In this document: positions 26,229-47,276 of the stretch, piece by piece | How the letters are laid out: every line of letters begins with the position of its first letter | Numbering within the stretch: position 1 is the stretch's first letter | NCBI GenBank assembly: GCA_028874215.1 | Contig: JAPPLF010000080.1 | Coordinates: 83,299-147,298 of the forward strand | Length of the DNA stretch: 64,000 nucleotides | Reading direction: 5' to 3' | DNA from: Acidobacteriota bacterium | GTDB taxonomy: Bacteria > Acidobacteriota > UBA6911 > RPQK01 > JAJDTT01 | Made by a program: the position numbers and the translations under genes | Notes under the pieces: model-generated | The model's database searches: none | Told to the model about the DNA's origin: nothing | Seen by the model: only the letters and a program-made list of their open reading frames with translations

Positions 26229-27992
26229 CTATGGCGGCGAACCGGTGGACGGGCCCGGGAGATCCATAGCCGAGGCCACCGGCGAAAAGATGGGATCGTC
26301 CTCGCGCCAAGGGCGCCGGCAGGGTTGTCGGCTTTGGTAAAGCGCGAGGTTTTCGTTCAGGAGCCGCGCCAGATCGAAGCGCTGGTTCCGCTGTAGATCG
26401 GAAATCATGGCCCGTTGCATCTCGGCTGCCCGTTCAAACTGCCCCGTTGCGGCGAAGGCCATTGCCAGAGTTTCGACGTATTCCAGTTCAAGCTCGCCCT
26501 GGCCCTCGAACAGGCCTTTGAGAATCTGCAACGCTCTCATTCCATTTCGGATCTTTGGGTCGGGAGAAGCGGCGAGCAGCCGGGCCACGGCGTGCGTCAT
26601 GTCGGCGTGGCCTGGAAAAGCCTGCAGTCCTTGCTCCAATACCTCTAACGCCTGCTCATGCCGGCCCAATTGGACCAGGGCCATGGCCCGCATGAAATGT
26701 GCCAGGATGCTCATTTGCCGGATCTGTCCGCCTCCAGCGCTATCGGCCGGGGACCGGCTGGCGAAACCGGAATCGAGTTCGGCGACGGCCGCGTAGTGGG
26801 GGATGGCCTGATCGAAACGCCGGAGGCGCATCAGCAGATTGGCCAACTGAAAGTGCGCCTCCATGAACCCCGGGTTCGCCTCAATGGCTCGCTGATAGTG
26901 CCGGGCCGCTTCCTCTTCGGACTGCAACCCCATCAACGTGGTTCCCAGGTAGTAATGGAGCATGGGATTTCCGGGCGAGACCCGCAGCGCCTGAGCGTAT
27001 TCCCGCGCCGCCCCTTGGAGGTCCCCCATTCGGGCTAACGCCGAACCCAGATCGGTGAGCGGAACCGGGTTCTTGGGATCCAGAGCCACCGAGGTGCGGT
27101 ATTCCTTGACGGCCTCCGCAAAACGCCCTTTTCCGAACGCCCGCATTCCACGGACCCAATGATGGCGCCAACCTGTGGTCAGATCGTCCAGGGCTTCCAT
27201 CAGGGGATCCGGATAACCGGCGGTGGCATGGCCGCGCCGGAGCCTCTCCAGCATGGCGACCTGCTGGAAATGGGCCTGGGCCTGGTCCAGGTCTCCTTGC
27301 CTTCGGTAACTCATGGCCAACAGGTAGTGGATGCTGTTGGCTTCCGGTTGCAACGCCAGGGCGGCCTCGAAGTTGCGGATGGCTTCCTTGGTGTTCCGTC
27401 TTGAGGACGCGATCTTTCCCATCCCCACCAGGGCGGGAGCACAGTCTTCGTCCAGTGCCAGCGCCCGCTCGAACAACGGTTGCGCCCGTTCGTAGCGGTT
27501 GAGGCTGAGATAACCTTCGGCGGCGCCCAATATGGCCGGGACGTTCTCGGGTTGATGCTCCATGGCCCGCTGGTAAGCGGCGATGGACTGCTCGAGATCA
27601 CCCTTGTTCCGAAAGATGTGACCCAGGTAGTAAGGCCAGCGAAAGTCTGTCGGCTCCAGTGACTCCGCATTGAGATAGCTGGCCTCGGCCGCGCCCAGGA
27701 AATCCTGGACGTGGTAGAGCTTGCCCATCTCGCCGTAGGCTTGGGAGAGTTCCTCGGAGCTGGCCTTTCCCGCTTTCGCCATCGACTCCAGCCCTGCCCG
27801 CGTGTCCCTGATTCGCTTCCGGGCGGCAGGCTCCAGGCGGCTCAAGTCCGGGTGGGATATGGGCTGAATCGAATCATTCGATGGGGAGACCGGCGCGGAT
27901 TCTCCCGCGGCCGCGAAGGGCAGGACGCCGAGCCCCAAGAGCAACAGGGCGCCGGCACGAAACCGGTTGCGGAGCTTCGTCGAATCACTCAT
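26229..27992 (-). CDS. TPR protein with CRxPWxxDDPxFSP tail (TPR-A)
   Basis: The 587-aa protein has a signal peptide (ALLLLGLGVLPFAAAGE), a conserved HPDLSRLEP entry segment, and about ten TPR units. A distinct C-terminal module follows (THAVARLLAASPD ... AMAFAATGQFERAAEMQRAM) and ends in CRRPWREDDPIFSPV. It is homologous over its full length to the protein at 45549-47276. Its C-terminal module is also fused onto the haem/copper lipoprotein at 31650. It should be a periplasmic scaffold or partner protein. Its ATG overlaps the stop of the CRTAC1 gene by 8 bases, so it is the third gene of an operon GWxTD-CRTAC1-TPR. Confidence 0.85.
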   Translation of the reverse strand: MSDSTKLRNRFRAGALLLLGLGVLPFAAAGESAPVSPSNDSIQPISHPDLSRLEPAARKRIRDTRAGLESMAKAGKASSEELSQAYGEMGKLYHVQDFLGAAEASYLNAESLEPTDFRWPYYLGHIFRNKGDLEQSIAAYQRAMEHQPENVPAILGAAEGYLSLNRYERAQPLFERALALDEDCAPALVGMGKIASSRRNTKEAIRNFEAALALQPEANSIHYLLAMSYRRQGDLDQAQAHFQQVAMLERLRRGHATAGYPDPLMEALDDLTTGWRHHWVRGMRAFGKGRFAEAVKEYRTSVALDPKNPVPLTDLGSALARMGDLQGAAREYAQALRVSPGNPMLHYYLGTTLMGLQSEEEAARHYQRAIEANPGFMEAHFQLANLLMRLRRFDQAIPHYAAVAELDSGFASRSPADSAGGGQIRQMSILAHFMRAMALVQLGRHEQALEVLEQGLQAFPGHADMTHAVARLLAASPDPKIRNGMRALQILKGLFEGQGELELEYVETLAMAFAATGQFERAAEMQRAMISDLQRNQRFDLARLLNENLALYQSRQPCRRPWREDDPIFSPVASAMDLPGPSTGSPP

Positions 27993-29760
27993 TCCCGCTG
28001 ACTGTCCGGCCACTTCCTGCCAGTAGTGTGGAGTAGCGGCCAATGGGAAGATCCCTCCACTCCTCGACACCGCCGCCGGGCCAGGTCACACGGACGGCGG
28101 CGACTCGGTTCCGGTTCCCCAGCCCCACCAGCACCCGGGGATCGTTGGCGGAACCGTAGCTGCCGTCGGTCCTGACACGCCGTAGCAGCGTGAGACCATC
28201 AGGGAAGACGACTTCCACCCGCGCTCCCAACATGTCCCGCGGGGGGTCTTTGCCCAGCAGCCGCAATCCCAACCAGTGACGGCGAGTCCCCACGTTGTTG
28301 ATGAGCAGGCGTGCCGGACCGTTGTTGTTGACGATCAGCACGTCCACGTCTCCATCGTTGTCGACATCCCCAAAGGCGCCGCCGCGGCTCACCTCGGAGA
28401 GCTGGAAAACGGCTCCGCCTCGTTGGGTGACCTCCTCGAAACTTCCGTCGCCCAGGTTGCGGAAGAGCTGGTTGGGTTGATGCAACGGATAGGGATCCCG
28501 CAGTTTTTCCAGGGCCTCGATGGTGGCCACCTCCCCGTGCAGGGCCAGAATGTCCAGCCAACCGTCATTGTCGTAATCCAGGAAGGCGGTCCCGAAACCG
28601 GTGTAGGGCATGCTCGCGACCCCCAATTCGCTCTCGAAGGTCTGGTCTTCGAACCATCCCTGGCCATTGTTGAGGTAGAGCGTATTGGTTTCCCGGATCA
28701 GATGGGTCATGAAGAGGTCTTCGTCGCCGTCGTTGTCCAGGTCTCCGGCGTCGACTCCCATGCTGGCCTCGGTCTTCCCGTCCCGGTTCAGGGCGCAGCC
28801 GGCCACCAGCGCTTCCTCCCGGTAACTTCCGTTTTTCTGGTTCATCCACAGGTGATTGGGACGTTGATCGTTGGCGACGTAGAAATCGATCCAGCCATCT
28901 CCGTTGAAGTCGGCGCTCACCACCCCCAGCGCGCCGCCGTGCCTGGTGGCGACGCCGGTCCGGGAGGACACGTCCTGGAATGTCCCGTCACCCCGGTTGC
29001 GATAGAAACGGTTGGACTGGGCCGGGTAGCTGCGGGGTCCACAGTAGTCGATGGCGCCGGTACTGGAGTAGCACTTCTTGGGATTGGACAGCCGGTAGTC
29101 CACGTAGTTGCCCACGAAAAGGTCCAGCCAACCGTCCCGGTCGTAGTCCAGGAAGGAGGCGCTCACGCTCCACGCCGTATCGGCGCCGTCACCCACGGGG
29201 ACCTCGGTGAAGGTGCCGTTGCCGTTGTTGCGGTACATCCGGTTCCTGCCGAAGTTGGTGACGTAGAGATCGACCCAGCCGTCGTTGTCGATGTCTCCCG
29301 CCGCCACGCCCATTCCGTAGCCCAGCGAGACGATCCCGCTCTCGGCGGTCACGTCGGTAAAGCGCAGGTTGGGCGTCCCGTCCGGGTTCGACGTCAGGTC
29401 GTTTCGAAAGAGCCGGTCACGGAGCGGAGGCTCTTCCGGCGGCGGAAAGAGGGCGTCGTCGATGGTCTTGTCCGGGCCCAGCATCTGTCCCTGAACCAGG
29501 TAGACGTCCAGGTCGCCGTCGTTGTCGAAGTCCAAGAGGGCGCCTCCGGGACCCATCATCTCGCAAAAATAGTATTCCCCGGACATTCCGTTGAAGTGGC
29601 GGAAGTGGATTCCGGCTGCCGGGGCGACGTCCTCGAACCAATCGGCGCCGGTGTCTCCCGTCTTGGACGGGTGCGTCCACGAGGTGAAGAACCCCAAGGT
29701 GGCGACCCCGATTAGCAGGATCATCCGGTTGTGTTGTGGGTTTGAATGAGGACTAGCCAC
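27985..29760 (-). CDS. CRTAC1-family FG-GAP/VCBS propeller with ASPIC/UnbV domain (copy A)
   Basis: The 591-aa secreted protein has a short N-terminal hydrophobic segment, then HFNGMSGEYYFCEMMGPGG. At least seven Asp-rich calcium-type repeats follow (DFDNDGDLDVYL, DIDNDGWVDLYV, DYDRDGWLDLFV and so on), as in FG-GAP/VCBS beta-propellers. An ASPIC/UnbV C-terminus (LGARVEVVFPDG, RVLVGLGNRNRV, VTWPGGGVEEW) ends it. Human CRTAC1 shares this architecture; bacterial functions are unknown. GTG 29760 overlaps the GWxTD stop by 8 bases. ATG 29724 and ATG 29799 are alternatives. It is closely similar to the protein at 39748. Confidence 0.88.
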   Translation of the reverse strand: MASPHSNPQHNRMILLIGVATLGFFTSWTHPSKTGDTGADWFEDVAPAAGIHFRHFNGMSGEYYFCEMMGPGGALLDFDNDGDLDVYLVQGQMLGPDKTIDDALFPPPEEPPLRDRLFRNDLTSNPDGTPNLRFTDVTAESGIVSLGYGMGVAAGDIDNDGWVDLYVTNFGRNRMYRNNGNGTFTEVPVGDGADTAWSVSASFLDYDRDGWLDLFVGNYVDYRLSNPKKCYSSTGAIDYCGPRSYPAQSNRFYRNRGDGTFQDVSSRTGVATRHGGALGVVSADFNGDGWIDFYVANDQRPNHLWMNQKNGSYREEALVAGCALNRDGKTEASMGVDAGDLDNDGDEDLFMTHLIRETNTLYLNNGQGWFEDQTFESELGVASMPYTGFGTAFLDYDNDGWLDILALHGEVATIEALEKLRDPYPLHQPNQLFRNLGDGSFEEVTQRGGAVFQLSEVSRGGAFGDVDNDGDVDVLIVNNNGPARLLINNVGTRRHWLGLRLLGKDPPRDMLGARVEVVFPDGLTLLRRVRTDGSYGSANDPRVLVGLGNRNRVAAVRVTWPGGGVEEWRDLPIGRYSTLLAGSGRTVSGNE

Positions 29761-31402
29761 CTTTGACTCGGAAGCTGTCTCCGACCTGAGTCCTGGCATC
29801 GTTGAGCTGATCCCAAGCTTCGACTTCCACCCGGTAGGTTCCGGGTTCCAGGCCCCCCAGGTGAAAGCCCTTCACCAGGACCAGTCTGTCCGGCGAGAAA
29901 AACTGAACCGACTCCCCGTTGTTGTCGGTGGTTTCGTGAATGAGGTCGCCGCCGCGCCTGATCTGATAACGCACCTTCAACTCGGGCGCGTTGGAGGATT
30001 GATCCAGGCCGAAGTTGTACAGATGCAGGTAAACCGCCAGCAGGGACTTGGGGGAAAAGCTCTTGTCCATGCTGGGCCGTACCTTGACGTCTCCCAAAAC
30101 GAACATCTGGTCGTCTTCGGGGACCTGGTCCAGCTTGCGGATGAAGTCGGAAAGAACGAGCGAACTGTTGCTCAGTTTCGCGCCTTCCTTCAATCCCGAC
30201 GGCGGAATGATGGCTTGTTTGACGGCGCCGATGTTGCTGCTTTCGACGTCCTTCACGACCAGATCGAGCTTGTATCGGGTCTTGTTGTCCAGAATCAGGA
30301 CTTTCTGGTACATCGATCGGCCCCTCAAACTCCTTTCAAACTGCTCCGGCGTGTATGAGATCACCAGTTCATCGTCGAATTCCTGGATCAACTGATTGTC
30401 CAAGCTGGTCACGGCGCCGTAGAGGCCGATTCGAGCGGTATGCAGGTCTCCCTTTCGCTTGAAGGTCATGTCCTTGTTCTGGAGCTGCAAGGTGACGGGA
30501 ACCAGAAGCTTCTCCCGGTTGAGTTTGAAGTAGTCCCTTCGAACCTGGAAAGCGAGGTTTGAATAGCCGATGTTGACCTTCACCAACTCCTTCAGATCGT
30601 TGTACTTGATCTCTTTCGGGGTCTGCACCTGGGAGAAAATCTCGTAGCGGTAGAAGGGGTTGTTTCGGAAACTGCCGGTGTTGTACGCGGGGTTGTGGCG
30701 TCCCGGAGCAAAATAGGGGCGGTCCTCTTTTCTGGTAAGACCGACCTGCTCGGCCCAGGTCAGGCCCTGCCCCGGCATGTGCAGTAGGGCGTCCTTTTCT
30801 TCCGGATTGAGAGCCAGGTGGTAGTCTCCGGTGAAGGACTTGTCCACGAATTCCAACTCGATGTCGTCTCCGATGCCCTCCAGGTGCCGATAGCGCCACC
30901 GTTCGAATGCATAGACGGTCGTCTGTCCGCCACCCTGTTCGAATTCGCGGTCGTAGAAGCTTCCTGCGGCGTAGGTCTCGATTTCAGCCGGTTCCCCGTG
31001 AATGATGTAGACACGGCCCCGATCCGAGCGCCATCCCTCCTTGCCGGAGTGGAATCGCTCATTGGCATAGGCGATGCGCCGATAGTGTTCTTCCTTGAAC
31101 TCGTTGAGCGCCGTCCGGGGATCGGGGTCTCGCCGTCGCCAGAACTGTTCGATGAAGCGTTCCTTTTCGTCCTCCGTCGTCAGCTTTGCAAAGACCGACT
31201 TCTCCTCTTCCGTAATAATGTAGATGGCATCCCGTTCCAGCCAGTTCTTGAAATAGTCCTCACTTTCCTCACGGCGAACGTCGGGATCCACCTTTTGCTT
31301 TGCCCCCATCGCGGGAAAGAAAGGCCCCAGCGACAGAATCATCAATAGGGGAGGGAATAGAAGACGCACGGCTCTGGCCCTTTGTTCCATTGGAAACCTC
31401 AT
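29753..31402 (-). CDS. GWxTD-domain protein
   Basis: The 549-aa protein has a signal peptide (LLFPPLLMILSLGPFFPAMG), then the GWxTD domain with the helical segment ERFIEQFWRRRDPDP and the name motif as GWRSD (residues 123-127), followed by GRVYIIHGEP. The remainder is a beta-rich region. GWxTD proteins occur mainly in Acidobacteria, Bacteroidetes and related phyla and have no assigned biochemical role. It leads the operon with CRTAC1-A and TPR-A. An alternative start is 31390. Confidence 0.88.
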   Translation of the reverse strand: MRFPMEQRARAVRLLFPPLLMILSLGPFFPAMGAKQKVDPDVRREESEDYFKNWLERDAIYIITEEEKSVFAKLTTEDEKERFIEQFWRRRDPDPRTALNEFKEEHYRRIAYANERFHSGKEGWRSDRGRVYIIHGEPAEIETYAAGSFYDREFEQGGGQTTVYAFERWRYRHLEGIGDDIELEFVDKSFTGDYHLALNPEEKDALLHMPGQGLTWAEQVGLTRKEDRPYFAPGRHNPAYNTGSFRNNPFYRYEIFSQVQTPKEIKYNDLKELVKVNIGYSNLAFQVRRDYFKLNREKLLVPVTLQLQNKDMTFKRKGDLHTARIGLYGAVTSLDNQLIQEFDDELVISYTPEQFERSLRGRSMYQKVLILDNKTRYKLDLVVKDVESSNIGAVKQAIIPPSGLKEGAKLSNSSLVLSDFIRKLDQVPEDDQMFVLGDVKVRPSMDKSFSPKSLLAVYLHLYNFGLDQSSNAPELKVRYQIRRGGDLIHETTDNNGESVQFFSPDRLVLVKGFHLGGLEPGTYRVEVEAWDQLNDARTQVGDSFRVKGG

Positions 31403-31649: not shown

Positions 31650-33872
31650 GTGAAGCTTTACAGATCGGGTCGGCCCCTTCAGCGGAGATTCAAGGCAACC
31701 TTTGCTTTTCCCATCATCTTGGGGACCCTGTTCGGCTCGAGTTGGATCGGATGCACGCAATCGGAACCGCCGCAACCGCCACCTTCCGCGACAGATTCAG
31801 GCTCTGAAGAAGCAGCGGAAACCAGGGAGCCCGAGCCTCCCGTTGGCTTGACCTTCACCCGGGACATCGCGCCCATCGTCTTCCGGAACTGTTCTCCTTG
31901 TCATCGTCCGGGCGGGGCGGGTCCGTTCGATCTGCTCAGCTACGACGACGTCAAAACGCGGGCCCGGTTGATGGTCGCGGTGACGCAGAGCCGTTTCATG
32001 CCTCCCTGGCAGCCCGAGCCCGGCTATGGAGAATTCATCGGCGAGCGCCGGCTCGGCGTTGAGCAGATCGAGATGTTTCAGGAGTGGGTGGCCCAAGGGT
32101 CGGCAGAAGGGGATCCGGCCGACCTGCCCAGTATCCCGGAGTGGCCGACGGGATGGCTGCTGGGGCCGCCCGATTTGGTAGTGACCATGCCCCGGCCATA
32201 CACCCTGGCCGCCGAGGCCGGCGCGGCGGGGAAGGACGTCTTTCGCACCTTCGTGCTGCCGGTTCCGCTGGAGTCCATGCGTTACGTCCGGGCGTTGGAA
32301 TTGAGGCCCGGAAATCCCAAGGTCGTGCATCACATCGTGGGTGGGGTCGATCCCACGCCGCGCTCCCGGCAGCGCGACCAGCAGGACCGGACACCCGGAT
32401 TCGATGGGATGAGGTCCACGCAGACGGCTCGTCCGCCCGGGGGCCATATCCTGGTCTGGACACCTGGAAAGGTCCCCATGGAGTACGCGCAGGGCTTGGC
32501 CTGGGGTCTACGGGAAGGGACCGACCTGGTGCTGGAACTGCACATGCAACCGTCAGGCCGGCCGGAGCCGGTTCAGCCCAGCGTCGGTCTTTATTTCAGC
32601 GACGAGGCGCCCACCAAGACCCCCTTCATCCTGATTCTGGGGTCCGTCGCCATCGATATTCCGGCGGGCAGCAAGGACCACCGCGTAGAAGACAGCTATG
32701 TGCTGCCGGTGGACGTGCAGGTGACGAGTCTCTATCCGCACGCCCATTTCCTGGGCAAGCAGATGGAGGTCTTCGCGCGCCTTCCCGACGGGAGCCGGCG
32801 CTGGCTCCTCTACATCAAGGATTGGGACTTCAACTGGCAGGACGATTATCTCTACTCTGAGCCCGTCTCGCTCCCGCGCGGCACCGAACTGACCATGCGC
32901 TACAGCTACGACAATTCAGCCGACAATGTTCGCAATCCTCACAATCCGCCCCGGCGAGTGGTCTACGGCCCCAATTCCTTCGACGAGATGGGCGAGGTGT
33001 GGATTCAGATGCTCACCCGCGACCAAAACGACCGGACAACGCTGCAGACCGATTATCGGCGCAAACAACTCGATCTGGGCATTGCCGGTTTCCGGCATAC
33101 CCTGGACACCAGGCCCCAGGACGCCAAGGCCCATCTGCAACTGGGTCAGGCACTGTACGCCCAGGGAAAGATCGACGAGGCCATCAAGCATTATCGCCAG
33201 GCGCTGGACCTGCAACCTGCCAGCGCCGAAACGCATGCTTATCTGGCCAACGCCCTAATGCAACAAGCCAAGCCGGAGGAGGCGATCCGGCATTATTCCC
33301 GGGCGTTGGAGATCAAACCGGACTTTGTGGAGGCTCACCTGCATGCCGCCAACGCGCTGATGGGGATCGGAAGACACGCTCAAGCGGAAGGGCACTATGC
33401 GCGAGTCGTCGAATTGAAAGGCGGCCACGCCTTCGCCCGCTACATGCAGGCCATGGCGCTGATCCGGCTCGGCCACTACCAGTCCGCCCGGTCCCGGTTG
33501 GAAGAAGGCCGCCGGACGCTGCCCGGCGATATCGACATCACTCACGCCCTGGCCCGGCTTCTGGCGGCGGCTCCCGACAGCAGCGTCCGCAACGGACCGC
33601 TGGCCCTTCAGCTCTTGCAGGAGGTGTTTCAAGCCCAGCAGGAAGTCTCCTTCGAGCACGTGGAAACGCTGGCGATGGCCTTCGCGGAGACGGGGCAGTT
33701 CCAGCGGGCGGTCCAGATGCAGCAGGCCATGATCGAGGACGTCAGCCGCGGTGGCCGAATGGACCTCGCCCGAATGCTGCAGGAGAACCTGGGACGGTAT
33801 CGCCGGGGACAGGCGTGCCGGGAACCCTGGAAGGACGATGACCCGGTCTTTTCACCGCTTCCGGGGAAATAG
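31650..33872 (+). CDS. Lipoprotein: c-type haem + PHM-like copper monooxygenase + TPR (copy A)
   Basis: The 740-aa protein has lipobox Cys35 (SWIGC), a haem c site CSPCH (81-85) with a later candidate Met ligand (SRFMPPW), and an ascorbate-dependent copper monooxygenase-like region. The PHM ligand set can be traced: HH at 227-228, His298 in LELHMQ, HxH at 364/366 in YPHAHF and Met447 in FDEMG. Spacing is close to rat PHM (HH107/108, H172, H242/H244, M314). About five TPRs follow, then the tail module CREPWKDDDPVFSP shared with TPR-A and TPR-C. It would act in the periplasm or on the outer membrane as a redox enzyme; the substrate is unknown. The start is GTG, divergent from the GWxTD gene. 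Confidence 0.87.
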   Translation: MKLYRSGRPLQRRFKATFAFPIILGTLFGSSWIGCTQSEPPQPPPSATDSGSEEAAETREPEPPVGLTFTRDIAPIVFRNCSPCHRPGGAGPFDLLSYDDVKTRARLMVAVTQSRFMPPWQPEPGYGEFIGERRLGVEQIEMFQEWVAQGSAEGDPADLPSIPEWPTGWLLGPPDLVVTMPRPYTLAAEAGAAGKDVFRTFVLPVPLESMRYVRALELRPGNPKVVHHIVGGVDPTPRSRQRDQQDRTPGFDGMRSTQTARPPGGHILVWTPGKVPMEYAQGLAWGLREGTDLVLELHMQPSGRPEPVQPSVGLYFSDEAPTKTPFILILGSVAIDIPAGSKDHRVEDSYVLPVDVQVTSLYPHAHFLGKQMEVFARLPDGSRRWLLYIKDWDFNWQDDYLYSEPVSLPRGTELTMRYSYDNSADNVRNPHNPPRRVVYGPNSFDEMGEVWIQMLTRDQNDRTTLQTDYRRKQLDLGIAGFRHTLDTRPQDAKAHLQLGQALYAQGKIDEAIKHYRQALDLQPASAETHAYLANALMQQAKPEEAIRHYSRALEIKPDFVEAHLHAANALMGIGRHAQAEGHYARVVELKGGHAFARYMQAMALIRLGHYQSARSRLEEGRRTLPGDIDITHALARLLAAAPDSSVRNGPLALQLLQEVFQAQQEVSFEHVETLAMAFAETGQFQRAVQMQQAMIEDVSRGGRMDLARMLQENLGRYRRGQACREPWKDDDPVFSPLPGK

Positions 33873-37351: not shown

Positions 37352-37405
37352 TGTCGCGTCCTCCTTAGGGACGGAAGTGGAGTAGGTGGAAAGTGGATTC
37401 CACAA

Positions 37406-37435
37406 GATGTAGCGGACGCTACCTGATTCCGTCAA
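37406..37435 (-). promoter_or_regulatory. Candidate promoter of the Oar-like receptor with a palindrome in the spacer
   Basis: On the minus strand TTGACG (37435-37430) and TACATC (37411-37406) are separated by 18 bp. The inverted repeat GTAGCG-GA-CGCTAC (37409-37422) covers the spacer and touches the -10, a classic repressor-site position. A second TTGAC lies 11 bp further upstream. Confidence 0.4.
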
Positions 37436-37514: not shown

Positions 37515-37657
37515 GCGGTTGATGCTAATCGGCGGGAAGGTCTCAATTCTGCTGTACAACATCCATGCCACGGCCTTGTGAGAATCTGCCGGACTGCGGT
37601 CGCAATCACGTAGAATCGGGAATCAGGCGTCTCTGTAATCTGACTGGGGGTAAGGCG

Positions 37658-39688
37658 GTGAAGCTTTACGGGCCGGATCGGCCTCTCGGGGAGAGATTCA
37701 AGGCAGGCGTGGTCTTTCCGCTCTTGATGGGGGCGTTGTTCAGCTCGATCTGGATGGGGTGCACACAACCCGACTCTCTTCAGACAGCCCCGCCGCCTCC
37801 CGAGTCAAGCGTAGAAGACTCGCTGAAAACTTATGCGCCCCGGCTGGCCGGCAGCTTGACCTTCCACCGGGACATCGCTCCCCTGGTGTTCGAGAACTGC
37901 GCGCCCTGCCACCGGCCCGGGGGATCGGGTCCGTTCAACCTGCTCGGCTACGATGACGTCAACCGCCGGCGAAATCAGATCGTCACCGTCACGCAGAGCC
38001 GTTACATGCCGCCCTGGCAACCCGAGCCGGGATACGGCGAGTTCATCGGCGAGCGCCGCCTGAATGCGGATCAGGTCGGGATGTTGTCCCAGTGGGTGGC
38101 CGAGGGGGCGATCGAAGGAAATCCGGAAAATGCCCCGGAGGTGCCGGAATGGCCGTCCGGCTGGCATCTGGGTGAGCCGGACCTGGTTCTCACCATGCCT
38201 CGGCCCTATACCTTGGCGGCTGATGGTCCGGACGTCTTCCGGATGTTCGTGATACCGGTTCCCTTGAAGTCAAGCCGTTTCGTCCGTGCCTTGGAAATAC
38301 GCCCCGGCAACTCCAAGGTGGTGCATCATGCGGTGGGACTGGTCGACACGACCCGGCGCTGCCGGAACCTGGACGCGGAGGATCCCGTTCCCGGCTTCGA
38401 AGGCATGAGGTCCACCGAGTTCGCTCGCGCCCCCGACGGCAACTTCCTGGGGTGGACGCCCGGCAAGATTCCGACGGAGAGCGCCGGAGGGAGGACCTGG
38501 CGGCTGAAGAAGGGGGCAGACCTGGTCATGGAACTGCACATGATGCCCTCCGGCAAACCGGAACCGATTCAGCCCAGCGTGGGGCTCTATTTCAGTGACG
38601 AGGCACCGGCCAAGTCCTCCTTCATCATCGGGCTGGGGGCCCGGACCATCGACATTGCCCCGGGGGAGAAGGAGTATTGGATCGAGGACAGTTATGTCCT
38701 GCCGGTGGCCGTGGAGCTTCTGGGCGTTTACCCGCATGCCCACTATCTGGGGAAACGGATGCGGGCCTTTGCACAGCTTCCCGACGGCAGCAGGCGGTGG
38801 CTCGTCTACATCAAGGAGTGGGACTTCAATTGGCAGGACGAATACGTCTACCGTGAGCCGATTTCTCTGCCGCAGGGAACCCGTCTGACCATGCAGTACA
38901 GTTACGACAACTCTGCGGAGAACATACGCAATCCCCACAATCCGCCGCGGCGGGTGGTCTACGGCCCCAATTCCAGCGATGAGATGGGTGACCTGTGGCT
39001 CCAGGTATCGGCGGAAAACAGAAATGACCTGCTGACCCTGCAGACCGACTACCGCGTCAAGGAGCGTGACCGGTTCATTGCGGGCTACCGGCACGCCTTG
39101 CAGATCAAGCCGGGGGATGCCCGGACCCATGACCACCTGGGACAGGTGCTTCAGGCGCGGGGAAGGGTTGAGGAGGCCATCGGCCACTATCGTCAAGCGC
39201 TGAAACTCCGTCCGGGTTATGCGGAGTCCCACAGCAATCTGGCGACCGCCCTGGCACAGCAGGGTCATACCGAGGAGGCGATCGGCCACTACGGGCAAGC
39301 CCTCAAGATCAAGCCGGACCTGCTCGAAGCCCACTACAACCTGGGCGGAGCCCTGCTGGCCATGGGCCGCGCCGGCCAAGCCATCGCCTCCCTGCGGCGA
39401 GCCATCCGGATCGAGCCGGAGTTTGCCAGGGCGCACAACAACTTGGGCATCGCCTTCGCTCAGCAGGAGGATTTGGCCCAGGCGCTGTTCCACTTTGAGC
39501 GGGCGGTGAGGATCGATTCGGACTTTGCGGAGGCCCGCAACAATCTTGGCAATGCGCTTCTCGCGACCGGGGATTTCAGCCGTGCCGTGTTCGAATACCG
39601 GCGCGCCCTTCAGATCGACCCCAGCTATGCGGATGCCGAGCGCAACCTGAAGCTGGCACAGGAACTGCTGCTGACTTCCCCCAATTGA
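37658..39688 (+). CDS. Lipoprotein: c-type haem + PHM-like copper monooxygenase + TPR (copy B)
   Basis: The 676-aa protein is a paralogue of the product at 31650. It has lipobox Cys35 (IWMGC), haem motif CAPCH at 81-85, and the same copper-ligand set: HH 223-224, His294 in MELHMM, HxH 360/362 in YPHAHY and Met443 in SDEMG. The C-terminal part is a different, regular TPR array (HYNLGGALLAMGRAGQAIASL) that lacks the CRxPW tail. The start is GTG 37658, aligned with the paralogue (GTGAAGCTTTAC in both). It is followed by CRTAC1-B 59 bases downstream. Confidence 0.87.
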   Translation: MKLYGPDRPLGERFKAGVVFPLLMGALFSSIWMGCTQPDSLQTAPPPPESSVEDSLKTYAPRLAGSLTFHRDIAPLVFENCAPCHRPGGSGPFNLLGYDDVNRRRNQIVTVTQSRYMPPWQPEPGYGEFIGERRLNADQVGMLSQWVAEGAIEGNPENAPEVPEWPSGWHLGEPDLVLTMPRPYTLAADGPDVFRMFVIPVPLKSSRFVRALEIRPGNSKVVHHAVGLVDTTRRCRNLDAEDPVPGFEGMRSTEFARAPDGNFLGWTPGKIPTESAGGRTWRLKKGADLVMELHMMPSGKPEPIQPSVGLYFSDEAPAKSSFIIGLGARTIDIAPGEKEYWIEDSYVLPVAVELLGVYPHAHYLGKRMRAFAQLPDGSRRWLVYIKEWDFNWQDEYVYREPISLPQGTRLTMQYSYDNSAENIRNPHNPPRRVVYGPNSSDEMGDLWLQVSAENRNDLLTLQTDYRVKERDRFIAGYRHALQIKPGDARTHDHLGQVLQARGRVEEAIGHYRQALKLRPGYAESHSNLATALAQQGHTEEAIGHYGQALKIKPDLLEAHYNLGGALLAMGRAGQAIASLRRAIRIEPEFARAHNNLGIAFAQQEDLAQALFHFERAVRIDSDFAEARNNLGNALLATGDFSRAVFEYRRALQIDPSYADAERNLKLAQELLLTSPN

Positions 39689-39747: not shown

Positions 39748-41562
39748 ATGGGCGCTCTCCGACGGGGTTTCCGGGTCATCCTGATCATCGACGCCCTGCT
39801 ATCCGTCTGTCTTGCCCGGAGTCCTCAGCAGGCCGCCGCTCCGGGGCAGCAAGAAGGAGATTCGACGGCCACCGAAATATTTGTGGATGCCACGCGGGAA
39901 GCGGGGATCGATTTCGTCCACTTCAACGGGATGTCGGGAGAACGCTACCTGTGCGAAATGATGGGCCCCGGCGGAGCCATGTTCGACTATGACAACGACG
40001 GCGACCTCGACCTCTACCTGGTCCAGGGCCGCATGCTCGGACCGGGAAAGACGCTGTCCGATGCCATCTTCCCTCCACCCGGTTCCGGACCGTTGATCGA
40101 CAGGCTCTTCCGAAACGACCTGCGGAAGAACAGGAGCGGCGAACGACGATTGCACTTCACCGACGTGACGGAGGAAAGCGGGATCCAGTCCCCGGGCTAC
40201 GGGATGGGCGTGGCGGCGGGAGACTTCAACAATGACGGATGGACCGACCTGTACGTGACCAATTTCGGGCCCAACCAGATGTTTCGGAACAACGGGGACG
40301 GGACCTTTACCGATGTGACCGCGGCAACCGGCACGAATGACCCGCGCTGGAGTGTCAGCGCGGCGTTCGTGGACTACGACCGGGATGGCTGGCTCGACCT
40401 TTACGTGGGCAACTACGTCGACTTCAGCTTCTCGAACCACAAGCGCTGCTTTTCTTTCTCCGACGCGGGCGGCGGCAGCGCACTTGAGTATTGCGACCCC
40501 AGCCAATACCAACCGTTGCCGGAGAGCCTGTTCCGCAACCGGGGGGATGGGACCTTTGAAGATGCCTCCCACAAGGCAACAATTGCACGGGAATCGAATG
40601 GCGCCTTGGGCGTGAGTACGGCCGACTTCAATGGCGACGGCTGGATCGACATCTACGTCGCCAATGACAAGCGGCCCAATCACCTCTGGATCAATCAAAA
40701 AGACGGCAGTTTCCGGAACGAGGCTTTGCTGAACGGATGCGCCGTCAGCGGGGAGGGTTTTTCCGAGTCCAGCATGGGTGTTGACGCCGGCGACTTTGAC
40801 AGTGACGGAGACGAAGATCTCTTCATGACCCACATGTCGCTCAACGAGAAGAACACCCTCTATGTCAACCAAGGGAAGGCGTCGTTCAAGGATGCCTCCT
40901 ACCCGAGCGGGCTGGCCCTTCCCAGCATTCCATTCACCGGATTCGGAACGGCGTTCCTGGACTACGACAATGATGGCCGGCTGGACCTTCTGGCCGTCAA
41001 TGGACACGTCAAGAATGTCGAGGCGCTGGCGCGGGCCAAGGACCCCTACCCCTTGCATCAGACCAATCAACTCTTCAGGAATCTGGGGCAGGGAAGATTT
41101 CAGGAAGTGACCCGAACTGCCGGGGCCGTGTTCGGGCTGTCGGAAGTGAGCCGCGGAGCGGCGTTCGGGGATGTGGACAACGACGGAGACACGGACGTTC
41201 TGGTCCTCAACAACAGCGGGCGGGCGCGGCTGCTGGCCAATCAATCCGGAAGCGTCAACCATTGGATAGGACTGAGGCTTGCCGGCCAGCCGCAGGGCCG
41301 GGACATGTTGGGCGCGAGAGTCGCGGTCCTGCTCCCCGAGGGCCGAACCCTGTGGCGCCGGGTCCGCTCGGACGGGAGCTACGCTTCCGCCAATGACCCC
41401 AGGGTGCTGGTCGGGCTAGGCCGGGCGGATCGAGTCGAGGCGGTGCGCGTCTACTGGCCCGACGGACGGGCGGAAGAATGGAAAGAACTGCCGATCAATA
41501 CGTATTCAATGTTGGTGCAAGGCGCAGGGACCCGGTTCTCCGTGCCGCCCGAGCGTCGATAG
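39748..41562 (+). CDS. CRTAC1-family FG-GAP/VCBS propeller with ASPIC/UnbV domain (copy B)
   Basis: The 604-aa secreted protein is clearly paralogous to copy A: HFNGMSGERYLCEMMGPGG, then DYDNDGDLDLYLVQGRMLGPG. The Asp-rich repeats recur (DFNNDGWTDLYV, DYDRDGWLDLYV, DFNGDGWIDIYV, DFDSDGDEDLFM). An ASPIC/UnbV end follows (LGARVAVLLPEG, RVLVGLGRADRV). Each repeat can bind calcium. It lies directly after the haem/copper gene on the same strand, which is the strongest hint that the two work together. A signal sequence is present (VILIIDALLSVCLA). Confidence 0.88.
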   Translation: MGALRRGFRVILIIDALLSVCLARSPQQAAAPGQQEGDSTATEIFVDATREAGIDFVHFNGMSGERYLCEMMGPGGAMFDYDNDGDLDLYLVQGRMLGPGKTLSDAIFPPPGSGPLIDRLFRNDLRKNRSGERRLHFTDVTEESGIQSPGYGMGVAAGDFNNDGWTDLYVTNFGPNQMFRNNGDGTFTDVTAATGTNDPRWSVSAAFVDYDRDGWLDLYVGNYVDFSFSNHKRCFSFSDAGGGSALEYCDPSQYQPLPESLFRNRGDGTFEDASHKATIARESNGALGVSTADFNGDGWIDIYVANDKRPNHLWINQKDGSFRNEALLNGCAVSGEGFSESSMGVDAGDFDSDGDEDLFMTHMSLNEKNTLYVNQGKASFKDASYPSGLALPSIPFTGFGTAFLDYDNDGRLDLLAVNGHVKNVEALARAKDPYPLHQTNQLFRNLGQGRFQEVTRTAGAVFGLSEVSRGAAFGDVDNDGDTDVLVLNNSGRARLLANQSGSVNHWIGLRLAGQPQGRDMLGARVAVLLPEGRTLWRRVRSDGSYASANDPRVLVGLGRADRVEAVRVYWPDGRAEEWKELPINTYSMLVQGAGTRFSVPPERR

Positions 41563-41632: not shown

Positions 41633-42790
41633 TCACTGTGGCGTTCCCTGCAGGAAGCTTCCGGCATCGCGCTGCTTCTTATCGCGTTCCTGCGTGTCCA
41701 GTCTCTGAAACAGCTCCAGCTCTTTTCGAGCCTCTTCCGTCCGTCCCAGCGTCTTGTAGATCTGAGCCAACTGATAGTGGGGCTGGGGCTGGTTCGGATC
41801 CAGGGCGATGGCTCTCTGCAACGCCGCCACGCCGTCCTGTAGCCGTCCCTTGGCCACGTAGGCCGAGGACAAGGCGACGTAAGCATCGGGAATCTGATTA
41901 TCGACGCGGGTCACCGCCTCCAGATGCTGGATCGCTTCGTCGAACTTCTGGCGGTAGTTCTTGATGATTCCCAGCTCCAGATTGACGATGGGATGGTGGG
42001 GATCGATCTTCAGCTCCTTTTCCAGCACCGGCTCCGCCTTGTCGTACTGTCCCAAACCGAAGTAGAGATCACCCAGCGCGAAGTTGACCCCGGGCGCGTT
42101 GGGATTCAGGGCGACGGCTTTCTCGTATTCTTCGATGGCCTGGTTCAGACGCCCCTGGGTGGCGTAAGCCTCCGCCAGCAATTGGTGGGTGCGGAAGGAC
42201 TCCGGATCGATCTCCTCGATCCGCGAGAAGACCTGCTGGAACTTGTCGTAGGCGCTTCTGGTCCGGTTCAAGTAAGCCTGGGCCAAAGTCTGAAGTGCCT
42301 CCAGCTCCTGGGGATGTTTCTTGGTGACCTCCTCCAGGTGCTCGATACTCTCGTCAAGCCGTTGCAGAGCCAGGAAAGAGACCCCCAGGTAGACCTGCGC
42401 CTTGATGTTTTCGGGATTCTGGGAAATCGCCTGTTGGAATGCCCCGATCGCCTTCTGATAGTCATACAGGCTGTAGTGGGCGAGTCCCAGAAAGAAGTGG
42501 GCGTCGGGCAGCTTGGGTTCGAGTCTCAGCGCCTTCTCGATCGAGGCGACCGCTTCCGTGAATCTTCCCTGAAACTGATGGATCAGCCCCAACTTGGCAT
42601 GGAGAGGCGCGAACTCGGGTTGGATCGCCAGCGCTGCCCGGTAGGCCTGTTCGGCTGCGCTCCAGTCGCCGTTCTGCTCGGCGCGAGCGGCATTCTGGAG
42701 CTGTTCCTGAACCGCTGGAGGCAGTTGGACGGGTGTTCCGGCCGCCTGCATCCCCGCCAATGTCAGAAGCAACAAACTATGAATTGCCAT
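41633..42790 (-). CDS. Secreted TPR protein (TPR-D)
   Basis: The 385-aa protein has a signal peptide (LLLLTLAGMQAAG) and about nine regular TPRs (HAKLGLIHQFQGRFTEAVAS, HFFLGLAHYSLYDYQKAIGA and so on) with no C-terminal special module. It is unrelated to the CRxPW-tail type. It follows the SCO-CRTAC1 gene by 17 bases on the same strand and probably forms an operon with it. It ends convergently, 70 bases from the CRTAC1-B gene. Confidence 0.85.
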   Translation of the reverse strand: MAIHSLLLLTLAGMQAAGTPVQLPPAVQEQLQNAARAEQNGDWSAAEQAYRAALAIQPEFAPLHAKLGLIHQFQGRFTEAVASIEKALRLEPKLPDAHFFLGLAHYSLYDYQKAIGAFQQAISQNPENIKAQVYLGVSFLALQRLDESIEHLEEVTKKHPQELEALQTLAQAYLNRTRSAYDKFQQVFSRIEEIDPESFRTHQLLAEAYATQGRLNQAIEEYEKAVALNPNAPGVNFALGDLYFGLGQYDKAEPVLEKELKIDPHHPIVNLELGIIKNYRQKFDEAIQHLEAVTRVDNQIPDAYVALSSAYVAKGRLQDGVAALQRAIALDPNQPQPHYQLAQIYKTLGRTEEARKELELFQRLDTQERDKKQRDAGSFLQGTPQ

Positions 42791-42807: not shown

Positions 42808-45279
42808 CTACGGCTCCGTTACATTCAATTCGGAACCGGCTGGTATGGGTCCAGGAAGCACTTGTTGCTGACCTGACGGCCATAGCACCTCGACCTGATC
42901 GACCTTTCCGGCTTCGCCGAGCCCGAAGTAGAGCGGCCAGCGACTCTGTGAGAGGTATCCGGACTGGCCGTCCTGCACCTTGGTGTAGGTGGCCGAACCC
43001 GCCCGGACCGTGACCCAGGCGCCGAGCCCGTCGCGGTTCGACCGGGTCCCGGTGAGATTGACTTTGAGGAAATGAATCCGCTTCCGATCAGCCAGGTCGC
43101 TGACCAGGACCATGGGTTCGGAATTGAAATCGTTGGTCACGATGTCAAGGTCCCCGTCGTCATCCAGGTCGAAAATCACCGATGAACGTGAGCCTATGGC
43201 ACCCCAGGCCACGACACGGGTGACTCTGGCGCCCCGGGCCCGGGCCTTTTTGACCAGTTCGTGGTCCTTGTCGGCGCCGAGCACGTCCAGTTCGAACCAG
43301 GGGATGAGGGTCCGGCCGCCGCGCCTGGGTTCCACTCCCAAAATGAATTCGCTGTCCACGAATCTCCGTCCGCGGTCATTCAGCAGCAGACTGTTGATTC
43401 CGTAACGATAGCCGTAGTTCATGCAGGACGTGATGAAGGCGTCATCGAATCCGTCGGCGTTCAGGTCCCCCACGCTCAGTCCCCAGGGCCAGTAGTTCTC
43501 GGCATTGAATCGATCCGACATTTCATTGAAGGCGCCGTCTCCCTGATTGCGGAAGAAGGCGTTTCCCCAGACATGATTCCCGTCGGTGGCCAACATCTGC
43601 TTCTCGGCGATCTCCTCGGGGAAGGGGATCTTTTCCTTCTCGCTGAACGGATCGAGATGCTTCCACATGTCCGTGTGCATGTCGGTCAGATAGAGGTCCA
43701 GGCGCCCGTCGTTCTCGAAGTCGAAGACCTTGATCCCCATGGTTCCCCACGGCGTGGCGGGAAACAGCCGGCGGCTCTTCTTCACGAATCGCCGGCCTTC
43801 GACGTTCTCGTAGTACTGATCGTGGCCCTGCATGTTGGCCAGATAGAGGTCAGGCCACCCATCGTTGTTGGCATCCAGCGGACTGGCGTCGCCCGACCAA
43901 CTCGTATCCTGCAGACCCGCCTGGACGGTGACGTCGACGAACCGGTTTCCTCCCTGGTTCCGGTAGAGGATGCTGGGCTCCGAGAGCGCGTCATTCAGGT
44001 GGCGGTTGAAGGCATCCGGCGTGGAACGAAAGTAGGTATAGGTGGCGCGATCGGTTCCGGTAAAGGAGTCATGGACGACCGTCCTGATTTCGTCCGTCGT
44101 GTAAATGCCGACATTCACCAGGAAGAGGTCCAGGCGGCCGTCGCGGTCGTAGTCGAAGAAGACCGCCGCCGAGGAATGGCCTTTGTACCCGAGGCCGGAC
44201 TCGACGCTGATGTCCTTGAAGACTCCCTTCCCGTCGTTCTCGAACAACACGTTGCCCCCGCGAACGGTGGTGACGTACAGGTCCGCATCGCCGTCATTGT
44301 CGATATCGGCAAAAGACGCGGTCACGCCGATTCGCTCTTTGACACCGACCCCCGCCCGCTCCGTGATGTTCTCGAACCTGCCGCCGCCCAGGTTCTTCCA
44401 GAGTTCATTGCTGCCGGCCTGGCTCACGAAGTAGATGTCATGCCGGCCGTCGCCATCGACATCGGCAATGGCGAGTCCGTTGCCATGGTCGTAATGGGCG
44501 AAAATAAAGGACCTTCCAGCATCGTCGACGATCCGGTTGCGAAAAGTTATGCCCGATTCCCCGACCCGGTCCTCAAACGAAAAATCGTGGAGGACCTGGA
44601 TGCCGCCGGCGCTTTCAAGCTGGGCCTGCCGGCGTTCTTCCAACCACGGGAATTCCTGCCACAGGAGACGTTCCTGCAGCGTTGTCAGGACATCCCTCTT
44701 CAGGGCCTCTCTCTGGCCGGCTGCGTTGCCGTCGTAGAACCCTCGGACATGCCCTTGCGGATCGACCAGCATCCATTTCCCGCTGTGCGCAGGCGCCGTC
44801 CCGGCGAACCCTGAATGTACTCGCTCCAGTACGTCCCGGGAGCCGGTCAGGAAGCTCCACTGTTCCCAGTCCACTCCGGCCGCAGTTGCGTGACTCCGAA
44901 GGACTTCCGGCGAGTCGCGCTCCGGATCGGCCGTAAAGGTGACCAGACGAGTGTCGGCCCAGCCCGGCCGTCTCTTGAGTTCCTTTTGGAGCTTCGCCAG
45001 CGCGGCGGTCTGCGACGCCGCCTGCGGATCGCGGGTGCGAATGAAATCCGCGATCCATGCTTTGCCCAGCAGTTGGTGGGTCCCAAAGGTCCGGGAGAGG
45101 TGATCGGTCAAGGAGAACTCGGGCATACGGCGCAGTACGGGAGGTTGATGGTCTTGCGGGCGGGTTCTCTCGTCGGCCTCCTGGCGCAGGTTCGGCGCGG
45201 CGGACGGAGCCGCCGCCAGACCGAGCCAAACCACTGCCAATATGCCGCCCGCCCTCCTTGCCGAATTTGGTGGGACCAT
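42808..45279 (-). CDS. SCO-like (cysteine-less) domain fused to CRTAC1 propeller + ASPIC/UnbV
   Basis: The 823-aa protein starts at the ATG at 45279 with a signal peptide (GGILAVVWLGLAAAPSAAP). Residues about 50-190 resemble SCO1/SenC copper chaperones (GKAWIADFIRTRDP, GTAPAHSGKWMLVDPQG). The usual CxxxC after the DFIxT strand is absent: Asp and Ala replace the cysteines, although the late His is kept. The rest is an FG-GAP/VCBS propeller (DVDGDGRHDIYF, DIDNDGDADLYV, DYDRDGRLDLFL) with an ASPIC/UnbV end (LGAWVTVRAG, LYFGLGEAGKV). It is probably periplasmic. The domain cannot carry copper the SCO way. An upstream extension to 45567 in frame crosses the palindromic element and is not used. Confidence 0.82.
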   Translation of the reverse strand: MVPPNSARRAGGILAVVWLGLAAAPSAAPNLRQEADERTRPQDHQPPVLRRMPEFSLTDHLSRTFGTHQLLGKAWIADFIRTRDPQAASQTAALAKLQKELKRRPGWADTRLVTFTADPERDSPEVLRSHATAAGVDWEQWSFLTGSRDVLERVHSGFAGTAPAHSGKWMLVDPQGHVRGFYDGNAAGQREALKRDVLTTLQERLLWQEFPWLEERRQAQLESAGGIQVLHDFSFEDRVGESGITFRNRIVDDAGRSFIFAHYDHGNGLAIADVDGDGRHDIYFVSQAGSNELWKNLGGGRFENITERAGVGVKERIGVTASFADIDNDGDADLYVTTVRGGNVLFENDGKGVFKDISVESGLGYKGHSSAAVFFDYDRDGRLDLFLVNVGIYTTDEIRTVVHDSFTGTDRATYTYFRSTPDAFNRHLNDALSEPSILYRNQGGNRFVDVTVQAGLQDTSWSGDASPLDANNDGWPDLYLANMQGHDQYYENVEGRRFVKKSRRLFPATPWGTMGIKVFDFENDGRLDLYLTDMHTDMWKHLDPFSEKEKIPFPEEIAEKQMLATDGNHVWGNAFFRNQGDGAFNEMSDRFNAENYWPWGLSVGDLNADGFDDAFITSCMNYGYRYGINSLLLNDRGRRFVDSEFILGVEPRRGGRTLIPWFELDVLGADKDHELVKKARARGARVTRVVAWGAIGSRSSVIFDLDDDGDLDIVTNDFNSEPMVLVSDLADRKRIHFLKVNLTGTRSNRDGLGAWVTVRAGSATYTKVQDGQSGYLSQSRWPLYFGLGEAGKVDQVEVLWPSGQQQVLPGPIPAGSELNVTEP

Positions 45280-45453
45280 CGCTTCAGCTACGGGGGTTCG
45301 GAGTACCACCCCGTGAAGGGGATAGGATCTTCTTTTTTCGGGAGCCTGGCAAGGCCAACTCCTGCGCGGCGGAGCTTGGTCCATGGCACTTGGACAGCCG
45401 TCACCGAGAAGCCTCTCTGTTCCCTCCGGTGGTATTCTTCTAAGAAAAAGGGG

Positions 45454-45524
45454 GGGCGATTTCCAATCGCCCAGTCTTCGTTGCCAAGTTTGTCGCACCG
45501 GAGATCGGCGGTTAGGAAACCGCC
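45454..45524. repeat. REP-like pair of palindromes
   Basis: Two tight hairpins lie 35 bp apart. GGGCGATT / AATCGCCC with a 3-base loop spans 45454-45472, and GGCGGTT / AACCGCC with a 4-base loop spans 45507-45524. The pair sits in the divergent gap between the SCO-CRTAC1 gene and TPR-C. Such twin palindromes resemble REP/BIME or small MITE-type elements. Other copies would have to be found elsewhere in the genome; I see none in this window. Confidence 0.55.
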
Positions 45525-45548
45525 GCTCCTTTGGGGGAGCTTCTGAGA

Positions 45549-47276
45549 ATGTTTCGGTTCTTCGCAAACGGCAAAGGAGCCTTCCCGGTACCGGCCGGGC
45601 TGACCCTGGCTCTGGTTTTCCTGGGTGTGGCCGGTGTCCATGCCGCAGGCGTACCGGCCGGGCTTCAGGACCCCGCCGCCAGAGATTTGACCCCCGTTCC
45701 TCATCCCGACCTCAATGCCGTCGAGCGGCTGATTCGGGAGCAACTTCAAGCGGAGCGTTCCAAGTTGGCGGCCAAGGTCTCCGCGGTCGAAGTTTCCGAT
45801 TCGGCTCGGGCTGATGCTTTCGGAGGACTGGGGAGGCTTTACCATGCCTATGATTTCACCGAGGCCGCCCGCGCCTGCTACCGGAATGCGCTGGTCCTGA
45901 AGCCGAAGGATTTTCGCTGGGCCTATCTGCTGGGCCGCCTGTTGGAAAGCCAGGGGGACCTGCAGCAGGCTGTCGAGCAATACCGGCGCGCCGCCGGCAT
46001 CGAACCCGAAGATCTTCCGACACTGCTGCATCTGGCCCAGGCGCAACTGAACCTGAATCGCCCGGACCTGGCCGAACCGCTCTTCAAGGAGGCCATCTCC
46101 CGCGACCCGTATCCGTCGTCAGCCTCGGCGTTGGCGGGGCTGGGCAAGATTGCTCTCTCTCGAAACGATCCTGAGGAGGCCATCGAGTACTTCGAATCCG
46201 CCGTCTCGATGCAACCGGACGCCAGCAGCATCCACTATCCGCTGGCCATGGCCTACCGGCAGATCGGGGATCTGGAGAAAGCGCGGGAACATCTCAAGAA
46301 GCGCGGGACCAAGACCCCGGAATATCCGGATCCGCTGATGGAAGAGCTCCGTAAAGTCAGAACGGGCAAGCAGTTTTTTTGGAGTCAGGGCACAGTGGCG
46401 CTGAGCGAAGGACGCTTTGCCGAGGCCGCCGAGGCTTTCCGCCAAATGGTGGCGGCCGATCCCCAGGAGCCGATCGCCCACATGGACCTGGGGACGGCGC
46501 TGCTTCAAATGGGAGACGTGGGCGGAGCCATGGCCAAGTACCAGGAATCGCTCAGGCTCTCGCCGGGCAATCCCCGGCTTCACTACAATCTGGGGTTGGT
46601 CTACACCCTGCGGAAGGCCTATCCGAAGGCTCTCGAGCATTACCGGAACGCCGTCGAACTGGATCCCGGATTCGAGAACGCCCATTTCAATGCGGCGAAT
46701 CTATTGATGAGACTGGGGGCCATGGCGCAGGCCGGGCAGCACTACGGCCGAGTCAATGAACTGAATCCCAGCCACGCGTTTGCCCGATTCATGCAGGCAA
46801 TGACGTTGGTGAAGCTGGGCCGTTTTCAGGCCGCGCGAACGCTTCTCGAAACGAGCCACAAGGCTCTGCCGGAGGACATCGATATCACCCATGCCCTGGC
46901 GCGCCTGCTGGCAGCTTCGCCCCAAAGCACGGTCAACGACGGACGGCTGGCTCTGAAGCTCCTGCAGGGTGTCTTCAAGTCCCAGGACGAAGTGGCTTTC
47001 GAGCATTTGGAGACACTGGCGATGGCCCTGGCAATGAGCGGCCAATTCAATAGAGCTTTGCAGGTCCAGCAGGGAATGATGAACGAAGTCACGCAATCCG
47101 GCCGCGCGGATCTGGCTGCCTTGCTTCAGGAGAATCTGGTTCTTTATCGGAGTGGCCAGCCCTGCCGTAAACCGTGGAGGGCCGACGACCCGATTTTCTC
47201 GCCCGTCCCGGGAGACCTGGCGCCGCTGAAGTCAGCAGGAGAGGGGGCCAATCCATCTCCAGCCCTGACGAATTGA
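45549..47276 (+). CDS. TPR protein with CRxPWxxDDPxFSP tail (TPR-C)
   Basis: The 575-aa protein starts at the ATG at 45549 with a signal peptide (LTLALVFLGVAGVHAAG). It is homologous over its whole length to TPR-A: the PHPDL entry segment, about ten TPRs with YPDPLMEELRKV near the middle, and the C-terminal module (THALARLLAASPQ ... LETLAMALAMSGQF) ending in CRKPWRADDPIFSPV. It probably serves as the scaffold for the second copper/haem set, as TPR-A may for the first. It is convergent with the GH51 gene. Confidence 0.85.
   Translation: MFRFFANGKGAFPVPAGLTLALVFLGVAGVHAAGVPAGLQDPAARDLTPVPHPDLNAVERLIREQLQAERSKLAAKVSAVEVSDSARADAFGGLGRLYHAYDFTEAARACYRNALVLKPKDFRWAYLLGRLLESQGDLQQAVEQYRRAAGIEPEDLPTLLHLAQAQLNLNRPDLAEPLFKEAISRDPYPSSASALAGLGKIALSRNDPEEAIEYFESAVSMQPDASSIHYPLAMAYRQIGDLEKAREHLKKRGTKTPEYPDPLMEELRKVRTGKQFFWSQGTVALSEGRFAEAAEAFRQMVAADPQEPIAHMDLGTALLQMGDVGGAMAKYQESLRLSPGNPRLHYNLGLVYTLRKAYPKALEHYRNAVELDPGFENAHFNAANLLMRLGAMAQAGQHYGRVNELNPSHAFARFMQAMTLVKLGRFQAARTLLETSHKALPEDIDITHALARLLAASPQSTVNDGRLALKLLQGVFKSQDEVAFEHLETLAMALAMSGQFNRALQVQQGMMNEVTQSGRADLAALLQENLVLYRSGQPCRKPWRADDPIFSPVPGDLAPLKSAGEGANPSPALTN

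Follow-up and report, generated by a model that had tools for sequence, protein, structure and literature searches.

Haem-copper proteins, an Oar-like receptor and CRTAC1-TPR pairs in one gene block of an Acidobacteriota genome: a possible surface oxidation machine

A 64,000-nucleotide stretch of an Acidobacteriota bacterium (contig JAPPLF010000080.1; G000:C80:83299-147298 in the 5.7-Mb assembly), called here the window, contains a block of ten genes that encode two haem and copper proteins (HC_A and HC_B), an Oar-like receptor, CRTAC1-type propellers, TPR proteins and a GWxTD-domain protein. The question raised by this arrangement is whether the ten genes specify one envelope system, as was suggested by an original prediction of a duplicated extracytoplasmic redox system with Oar as its surface port, or are unrelated neighbors. 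The reading preferred here, to which we give an even chance, is that the locus encodes an Oar-coupled surface oxidation station, in which a haem-fed copper oxygenase would be docked on a CRTAC1-TPR platform. The ten predicted open reading frames (ORFs) are all present, with Pfam support in the block for TPR, FG-GAP_3 plus UnbV_ASPIC, GWxTD, OMP_b-brl_4 plus CarboxypepD_reg, and SCO1/SenC; the gene calls rest on a home-made codon score, and export was judged by eye from the N-termini rather than by a signal-peptide program. The layout is roughly mirror-like about Oar, which, like the GWxTD gene, is present in one copy within the block. The genes and their main domains are as follows.

26229..28070, minus strand: TPR_A, exported TPR protein (Pfam TPRs) with a C-terminal tail module (...QPCRRPWREDDPIFSP) placed by tail alignment; 45% identical to TPR_C over 560 aa.
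27985..29799, minus strand: CRT_A, CRTAC1-type propeller with six FG-GAP_3 repeats and UnbV_ASPIC (Pfam); 64% identical to CRT_B; nearest paralogues on contig C111.
29753..31402, minus strand: GWxTD-domain protein, PF20094 and TIGR04514 over cut-off, low-confidence fold; heads the GWxTD-CRT_A-TPR_A run.
31650..33872, plus strand: HC_A, with lipobox-like N-terminus, c-type haem domain, PHM-like copper domain, TPR and CRTAC1-partner tail.
31848..32100, plus strand: HC_A cytochrome c domain, CSPCH at residues 81-85 and Met117; PF13442 sub-threshold.
32172..33014, plus strand: HC_A PHM-like copper domain, H227, H228 and H298 (CuH type), H364, H366 and M447 (CuM type).
33345..33869, plus strand: HC_A exchanged tail, residues 566-740, resembling TPR_C (62%) and not HC_B by sliding identity and BLAST.
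33899..37435, minus strand: Oar-like outer-membrane beta-barrel receptor, PF25183 (OMP_b-brl_4, E=2e-165) and PF13620 (CarboxypepD_reg).
37658..39688, plus strand: HC_B, haem and copper protein with an ordinary TPR tail; 58% identical to HC_A over 645 aa.
39748..41562, plus strand: CRT_B, CRTAC1-type propeller (Pfam), starting 59 bp past HC_B on the same strand.
41633..42790, minus strand: TPR_D, exported TPR protein (Pfam), downstream of SCO_CRT.
42808..45567, minus strand: SCO_CRT, degenerate SCO1/SenC domain (PF02630, E=1e-10) with CRTAC1 propeller and UnbV (PF07593).
45531..47276, plus strand: TPR_C, exported TPR protein (Pfam) bearing the CRTAC1-partner tail (tail alignment).

HC_A and HC_B, whose identity is far above chance, share the features that had been predicted for them at the start of the protein (VKLYxxxRPLxxRFKA), in a lipobox-like W-[IM]-G-C, in CxxCH and in the copper motifs. 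The lipobox is non-canonical, with W at -3, and its Cys is conserved within the genus; HC_B probably starts at the GTG at 37658 rather than at 37565. Only the TPRs of the two proteins are secure in Pfam: the cytochrome domain (PF13442) and the copper domains are sub-threshold, PF03712 scoring 12.1 and 13.5 bits where the cut-off is 23, and PF01082 giving no match in the two members scanned. The copper domain is secure despite these scores because of its invariant ligands and predicted fold. In an alignment of 29 HC homologs from Acidobacteriota, Planctomycetota and one Chthonomonadaceae genome, some only ~30% identical, H227, H228, H298, H364 and H366 are found in every homolog whose sequence extends to the site, and M447 is kept in 28 of 29, the sole exception being a Met-to-Thr change. 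Among the homologs covering these positions, the cytochrome motif CxxCH is equally constant (27/27), as is Met117 (28/28), likely the sixth haem ligand. The copper ligands of rat PHM are H107, H108, H172, H242, H244 and M314, and the HH-H-HxH-M order in HC is that of PHM. The AlphaFold model of the HC_A core (pLDDT 88.8, pTM 0.87) places PHM and DBH (4zel) first in a Foldseek search of the PDB, with a best E of 8e-13 as compared to 1.4e-5 for the first unrelated match, and they are its only strong structural matches; the match to PHM 3mll (probability 1.00, TMt 0.67, 288 columns) covers the two-domain PHM fold. A PDB sequence search with HC gave no significant match. Ligands and model together thus give good support to HC as a PHM-fold dicopper-type protein carrying its own haem motif, in agreement with the copper and haem reading of the original prediction; that it is an active oxygenase we infer. 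HC shares with PHM and DBH the two domains and six ligands (HH..H..HxH..M) at about 18% identity, and differs from them in its N-terminal c-type cytochrome, its C-terminal TPR or CRTAC1-partner tail, its lipobox-like N-terminus, its predicted location in a bacterial envelope and its scores below the Pfam copper cut-offs. The literature searched yielded no paper on this HC family and none on ascorbate-dependent monooxygenases with Acidobacteria.

Of the 396 Acidobacteriota genomes sampled, 89 have HC genes (60 of 210 genera); most of the genomes compared appear to be metagenome-assembled. HC genes tend to lie beside genes of the Oar type. Outside the genus an Oar-type gene occurs in 21 of 40 HC regions, many of these neighbors being no more than 1.3 kb apart, as compared to 3 of the 20 control regions, which were drawn from some of the same genomes (Fisher P = 0.005). 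In this genome, with about 42 Oar-type genes, there is one within 5 kb of each of the three HC genes (0.2 expected, P = 0.0003). The prediction that Oar belongs with HC is thus supported. The HC-Oar-HC order recurs in family f31 (loci L148, L157, L160, L164 and L165), whose two HCs belong to clades that diverged deeply in the tree, unlike HC_A and HC_B, which are sister clades (support 100/99) that split within the lineage of this genus; the sandwich therefore arose more than once. At another locus (L150:8165-12331, G214:C35) a single ORF of ~1389 aa, lying between CRTAC1-TPR pairs, contains two tandem HC domains and TPRs. The block Oar (PF13620, 65.7 bits; PF25183, 552.7 bits) resembles Oar of Myxococcus xanthus (PMC6434023) in its N-terminal CarboxypepD_reg domain and large beta-barrel and differs from it in being flanked by haem-copper enzymes.

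A second association, of CRTAC1 with TPR proteins, also holds and was likewise anticipated. FG-GAP_3 and UnbV_ASPIC are both over cut-off in CRT_A, CRT_B and SCO_CRT, as in the CRTAC1/ASPIC-UnbV family, from which the block differs in that a dedicated exported TPR protein is paired with the propeller and one copy has a degenerate SCO domain. The TPR, CRTAC1 and Oar profiles used were derived from the present genome and could overlook distant members. Of 47 CRTAC1 genes read in the genome, 21 have an immediate TPR neighbor, TPR genes being 2 of 288 background genes, and an adjacent or fused TPR was found in 12 of 20 CRTAC1 regions from 20 other genomes, including two CRTAC1-TPR fusions. The tail common to TPR_A, TPR_C and HC_A defines a TPR subfamily found in 50 of 396 genomes; in ten genomes of five families 22 of 24 tail-type TPR genes, one of the 24 having served to build the tail profile, lie within 2.5 kb of an UnbV domain (0.27 expected). 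To our knowledge the role of CRTAC1 in bacteria has not been established. A group of ASPIC/UnbV paralogues has been reported in Solibacter usitatus (PMC3174227), and no paper on CRTAC1 with Acidobacteria was found in the literature searched.

The two associations meet in HC_A. This protein tracks HC_B to about residue 565 with 50-60% identity per 30-aa window, and then falls to 0-30%; its tail instead matches TPR_C at 53-73% per window, so that the HC_A C-terminus is homologous to TPR_A and TPR_C, not to HC_B. The tails of HC proteins outside the HC_A ortholog group reach at most 34%. HC_A has therefore had its own tail replaced by that of a CRTAC1-partner TPR, a fusion that links the two modules and bears out, within the locus, the suggested HC-TPR connection. 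Since the chimera is present in all species of the genus read, the tail was acquired before the species split, and HC_A could by means of it dock at the sites of TPR_A and TPR_C.

The block did not arise, as had been proposed, by duplication of one set. CRT_A and CRT_B (aligned over 559 aa) and TPR_A and TPR_C are paralogues with identities far above chance, as predicted, but CRT_A clusters not with CRT_B but with two C111 paralogues (95/97), TPR_A and TPR_C are merely 45% identical, and GWxTD is single. En-bloc duplication is therefore rejected, HC_A and HC_B still forming a genus-level pair. The paralogous cluster on C111 (G000:C111:8031-16840, L056) encodes a SCO_CRT-like protein that lacks the SCO domain, three CRTAC1 proteins, two of them nearest to CRT_A, and a TPR protein; the stretch read contains neither HC nor Oar.

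Other redox proteins are encoded near CRTAC1 genes. Cytochromes with 7-8 CxxCH motifs are fused to TPRs near CRTAC1 genes at L061:14203-16548 and L054:14964-17858 in this genome and at L205:12448-14766, and one gene of this genome (L047:3730-5793, G000:C101) joins FG-GAP/UnbV_ASPIC, an AhpC/TSA redoxin domain and many TPRs. Redox fusions of this kind also exist in G117 and G067 but are absent from 40 background and control regions. They lend support to a redox role for the CRTAC1-TPR neighborhood. A broader reading, possible but tentative and with the balance against it, is that CRTAC1 and tail-type TPR proteins form a general Acidobacteriota docking platform, coupled to Oar, whose TPR tails would recruit interchangeable redox modules, as an undescribed modular envelope oxidation system. 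With similar reserve, the modules could be the haem-fed PHM-like oxygenase in this block and, at other loci, domains of the multihaem cytochrome, redoxin and SCO-like types.

In the surface oxidation station proposed for the block itself, HC_A and HC_B would be lipid-anchored or periplasmic PHM/DBH-type copper oxygenases, to judge from ligands and predicted fold. The fusion suggests that their own c-type haem domain would feed electrons to the copper, replacing ascorbate or cytochrome b561, and the phylum-wide adjacency suggests that they may work with the adjoining Oar channel, substrate passing in, or product or substrate protein passing out. CRTAC1 and its dedicated TPR partner, the pairing of which is observed, would constitute a widespread unit of two proteins, separate from the first and probably acting as a Ca-dependent platform for binding and docking at the cell surface or in the periplasm. 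The two units would have been brought together in this genus, HC_A docking through its acquired tail where TPR_A and TPR_C dock, while the two enzyme copies may serve different substrates or positions and the whole would act at the outer membrane. Since parts of the layout recur across Acidobacteriota, this looks like a real but uncharacterized surface oxidation machine.

A number of observations weigh against this reading. CRTAC1 occurs in 5 of 40 HC regions outside the genus and in 2 of 20 controls, no enrichment; within 5 kb the count is 2 of 19 (P = 0.05); and in a separate sample HC lies within 5 kb of none of 34 CRTAC1 genes. A general HC-CRTAC1 partnership, as originally predicted, is thus unsupported by the phylum-wide counts, and the survey of family co-occurrence on which the system idea was to stand or fall has a mixed outcome, HC-Oar and CRTAC1-TPR being upheld and HC-CRTAC1 not. 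The adjacency counts themselves cover related genomes that are not phylogenetically independent, with small control sets of 20 regions each. By gaps and strands the ten genes, which lie on both strands, fall into six or more transcription units, namely GWxTD-CRT_A-TPR_A (-), HC_A (+), Oar (-), HC_B-CRT_B (+), SCO_CRT-TPR_D (-) and TPR_C (+), so that a single operon is rejected, and a promoter scan (0 found, 3.6 expected) was uninformative and gave no evidence of a shared promoter. Oar has no match to the PF07715 plug at 1e-3 in Pfam, the TonB box not having been searched. Finally, SCO_CRT, which matches PF02630 as do the SCO1/SenC chaperones, is fused to a propeller and in the orthologs read (window, L067 and L070) has DPQAA or DPQAS in place of CxxxC; copper delivery by this domain is therefore unlikely, and a role of SCO_CRT as a copper chaperone is rejected.

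One alternative, possible if rather doubtful, is that the HC-Oar unit and the CRTAC1-TPR units are independent chance neighbors in a genome rich in Oar (about 42), CRTAC1 (46 UnbV genes) and GWxTD (18) genes. It draws on these copy numbers, on the HC-CRTAC1 link that is not significant outside the genus, on the six transcription units and on the finding that CRT_A is not sister to CRT_B. However, the entire block is retained in four species, this one and three others of the genus (G001-G003, 83-98%), and the HC_A-TPR tail fusion lies inside it. HC and CRTAC1 also occur within about 10 kb of each other in groups in G028, G067, G126, G137, G214, G241 and G357, in G137, G214 and G241 as CRTAC1-TPRtail-HC groups, and GWxTD, Oar and UnbV genes cluster above expectation in this genome, with 8 of 18 GWxTD genes within 5 kb of UnbV (1.2 expected) and 13 of 42 Oar genes within 8 kb (4.1 expected).

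The port role predicted for Oar is plausible, but the port could work in either direction: in M. xanthus, proteins are secreted with the help of Oar, which is needed for this (PMC6434023). The block Oar may likewise work in the secretion direction, Oar-type genes adjoining, in this genome and its relatives, genes whose products are exported; on the other side, import is the role of most TonB-dependent transporters, and no sequence features are known that separate secretion from import in such transporters (PMC6434023). An unlikely variant is nutrient uptake of the Bacteroidota SusC/SusD kind, with Oar acting as SusC, TPR as SusD, CRTAC1 as a surface glycan or peptide binder and HC pre-oxidizing the substrate. 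The likeness, which is an analogy only, lies in a receptor beside exported helical-repeat and surface proteins; the CarboxypepD_reg and barrel architecture of Oar has been likened to SusC (PMC6434023), and other genomes have Oar-TPR-CRTAC1 runs as well (L198, L209, L213 and L214). But among the Pfam models listed TPR_A, TPR_C and TPR_D match TPR types only, so that SusD membership is rejected, and the block contains no glycoside hydrolase cluster, the arabinofuranosidase at 47298-49127 being just outside. That HC is instead a non-catalytic periplasmic copper and haem redox sensor or copper store keeping the PHM fold is quite improbable, for while no enzyme assay was found for the haem-PHM architecture and the SCO partner lacks a copper-binding motif, the catalytic ligands of both sites are kept, with the single Met exception, even in distant homologs, which is more than a non-catalytic role would require.

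Less can be said of the GWxTD protein, whose AlphaFold model is poor (pLDDT 65.9) and whose Foldseek matches (RbmA and transglutaminases, TM at most 0.31) merely suggest Ig-like C-terminal domains; the literature searched contained no paper on GWxTD. The alpha-L-arabinofuranosidase-like gene directly after TPR_C is not known to be part of the unit, and elsewhere the window contains genes for a NamZ exo-beta-N-acetylmuramidase (7787-9076) and a TonB-dependent receptor with a plug domain (13268-15907). An Rfam scan of the window gave no match. A palindromic repeat, GGCGGTTNGGAAACCGCC, is present once in the window (45454-45529), adjoining a second palindrome, GGGCGATTTCCAATCGCCC; this REP-like element is dispersed in the genome, with 19 exact copies spread over 12 of its loci, whereas the loci of other genomes have none, the loci holding it in addition to the window site being L046, L047, L048, L050, L056, L057, L060, L062, L082, L083, L086 and L105. 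Two public records seem to be mistitled: L015, a contig of Acidobacteriota type, bears the title Bordetella parapertussis, and L011, a contig of the same genus as the present one, Candidatus Aminicenantes.

The haem-fed PHM-like proteins thus appear to be an oxygenase family present in about one fifth of sampled Acidobacteriota genomes and, as far as the two members scanned show, missed by the copper models of Pfam. Their repeated position beside Oar would provide a first biochemical partner for these abundant and functionally blank receptors, and the CRTAC1-TPR pair offers a concrete candidate partner for CRTAC1, a family common to bacteria and vertebrates. The platform model, if true, would explain why dozens of CRTAC1, TPR and Oar paralogues are kept in such genomes.

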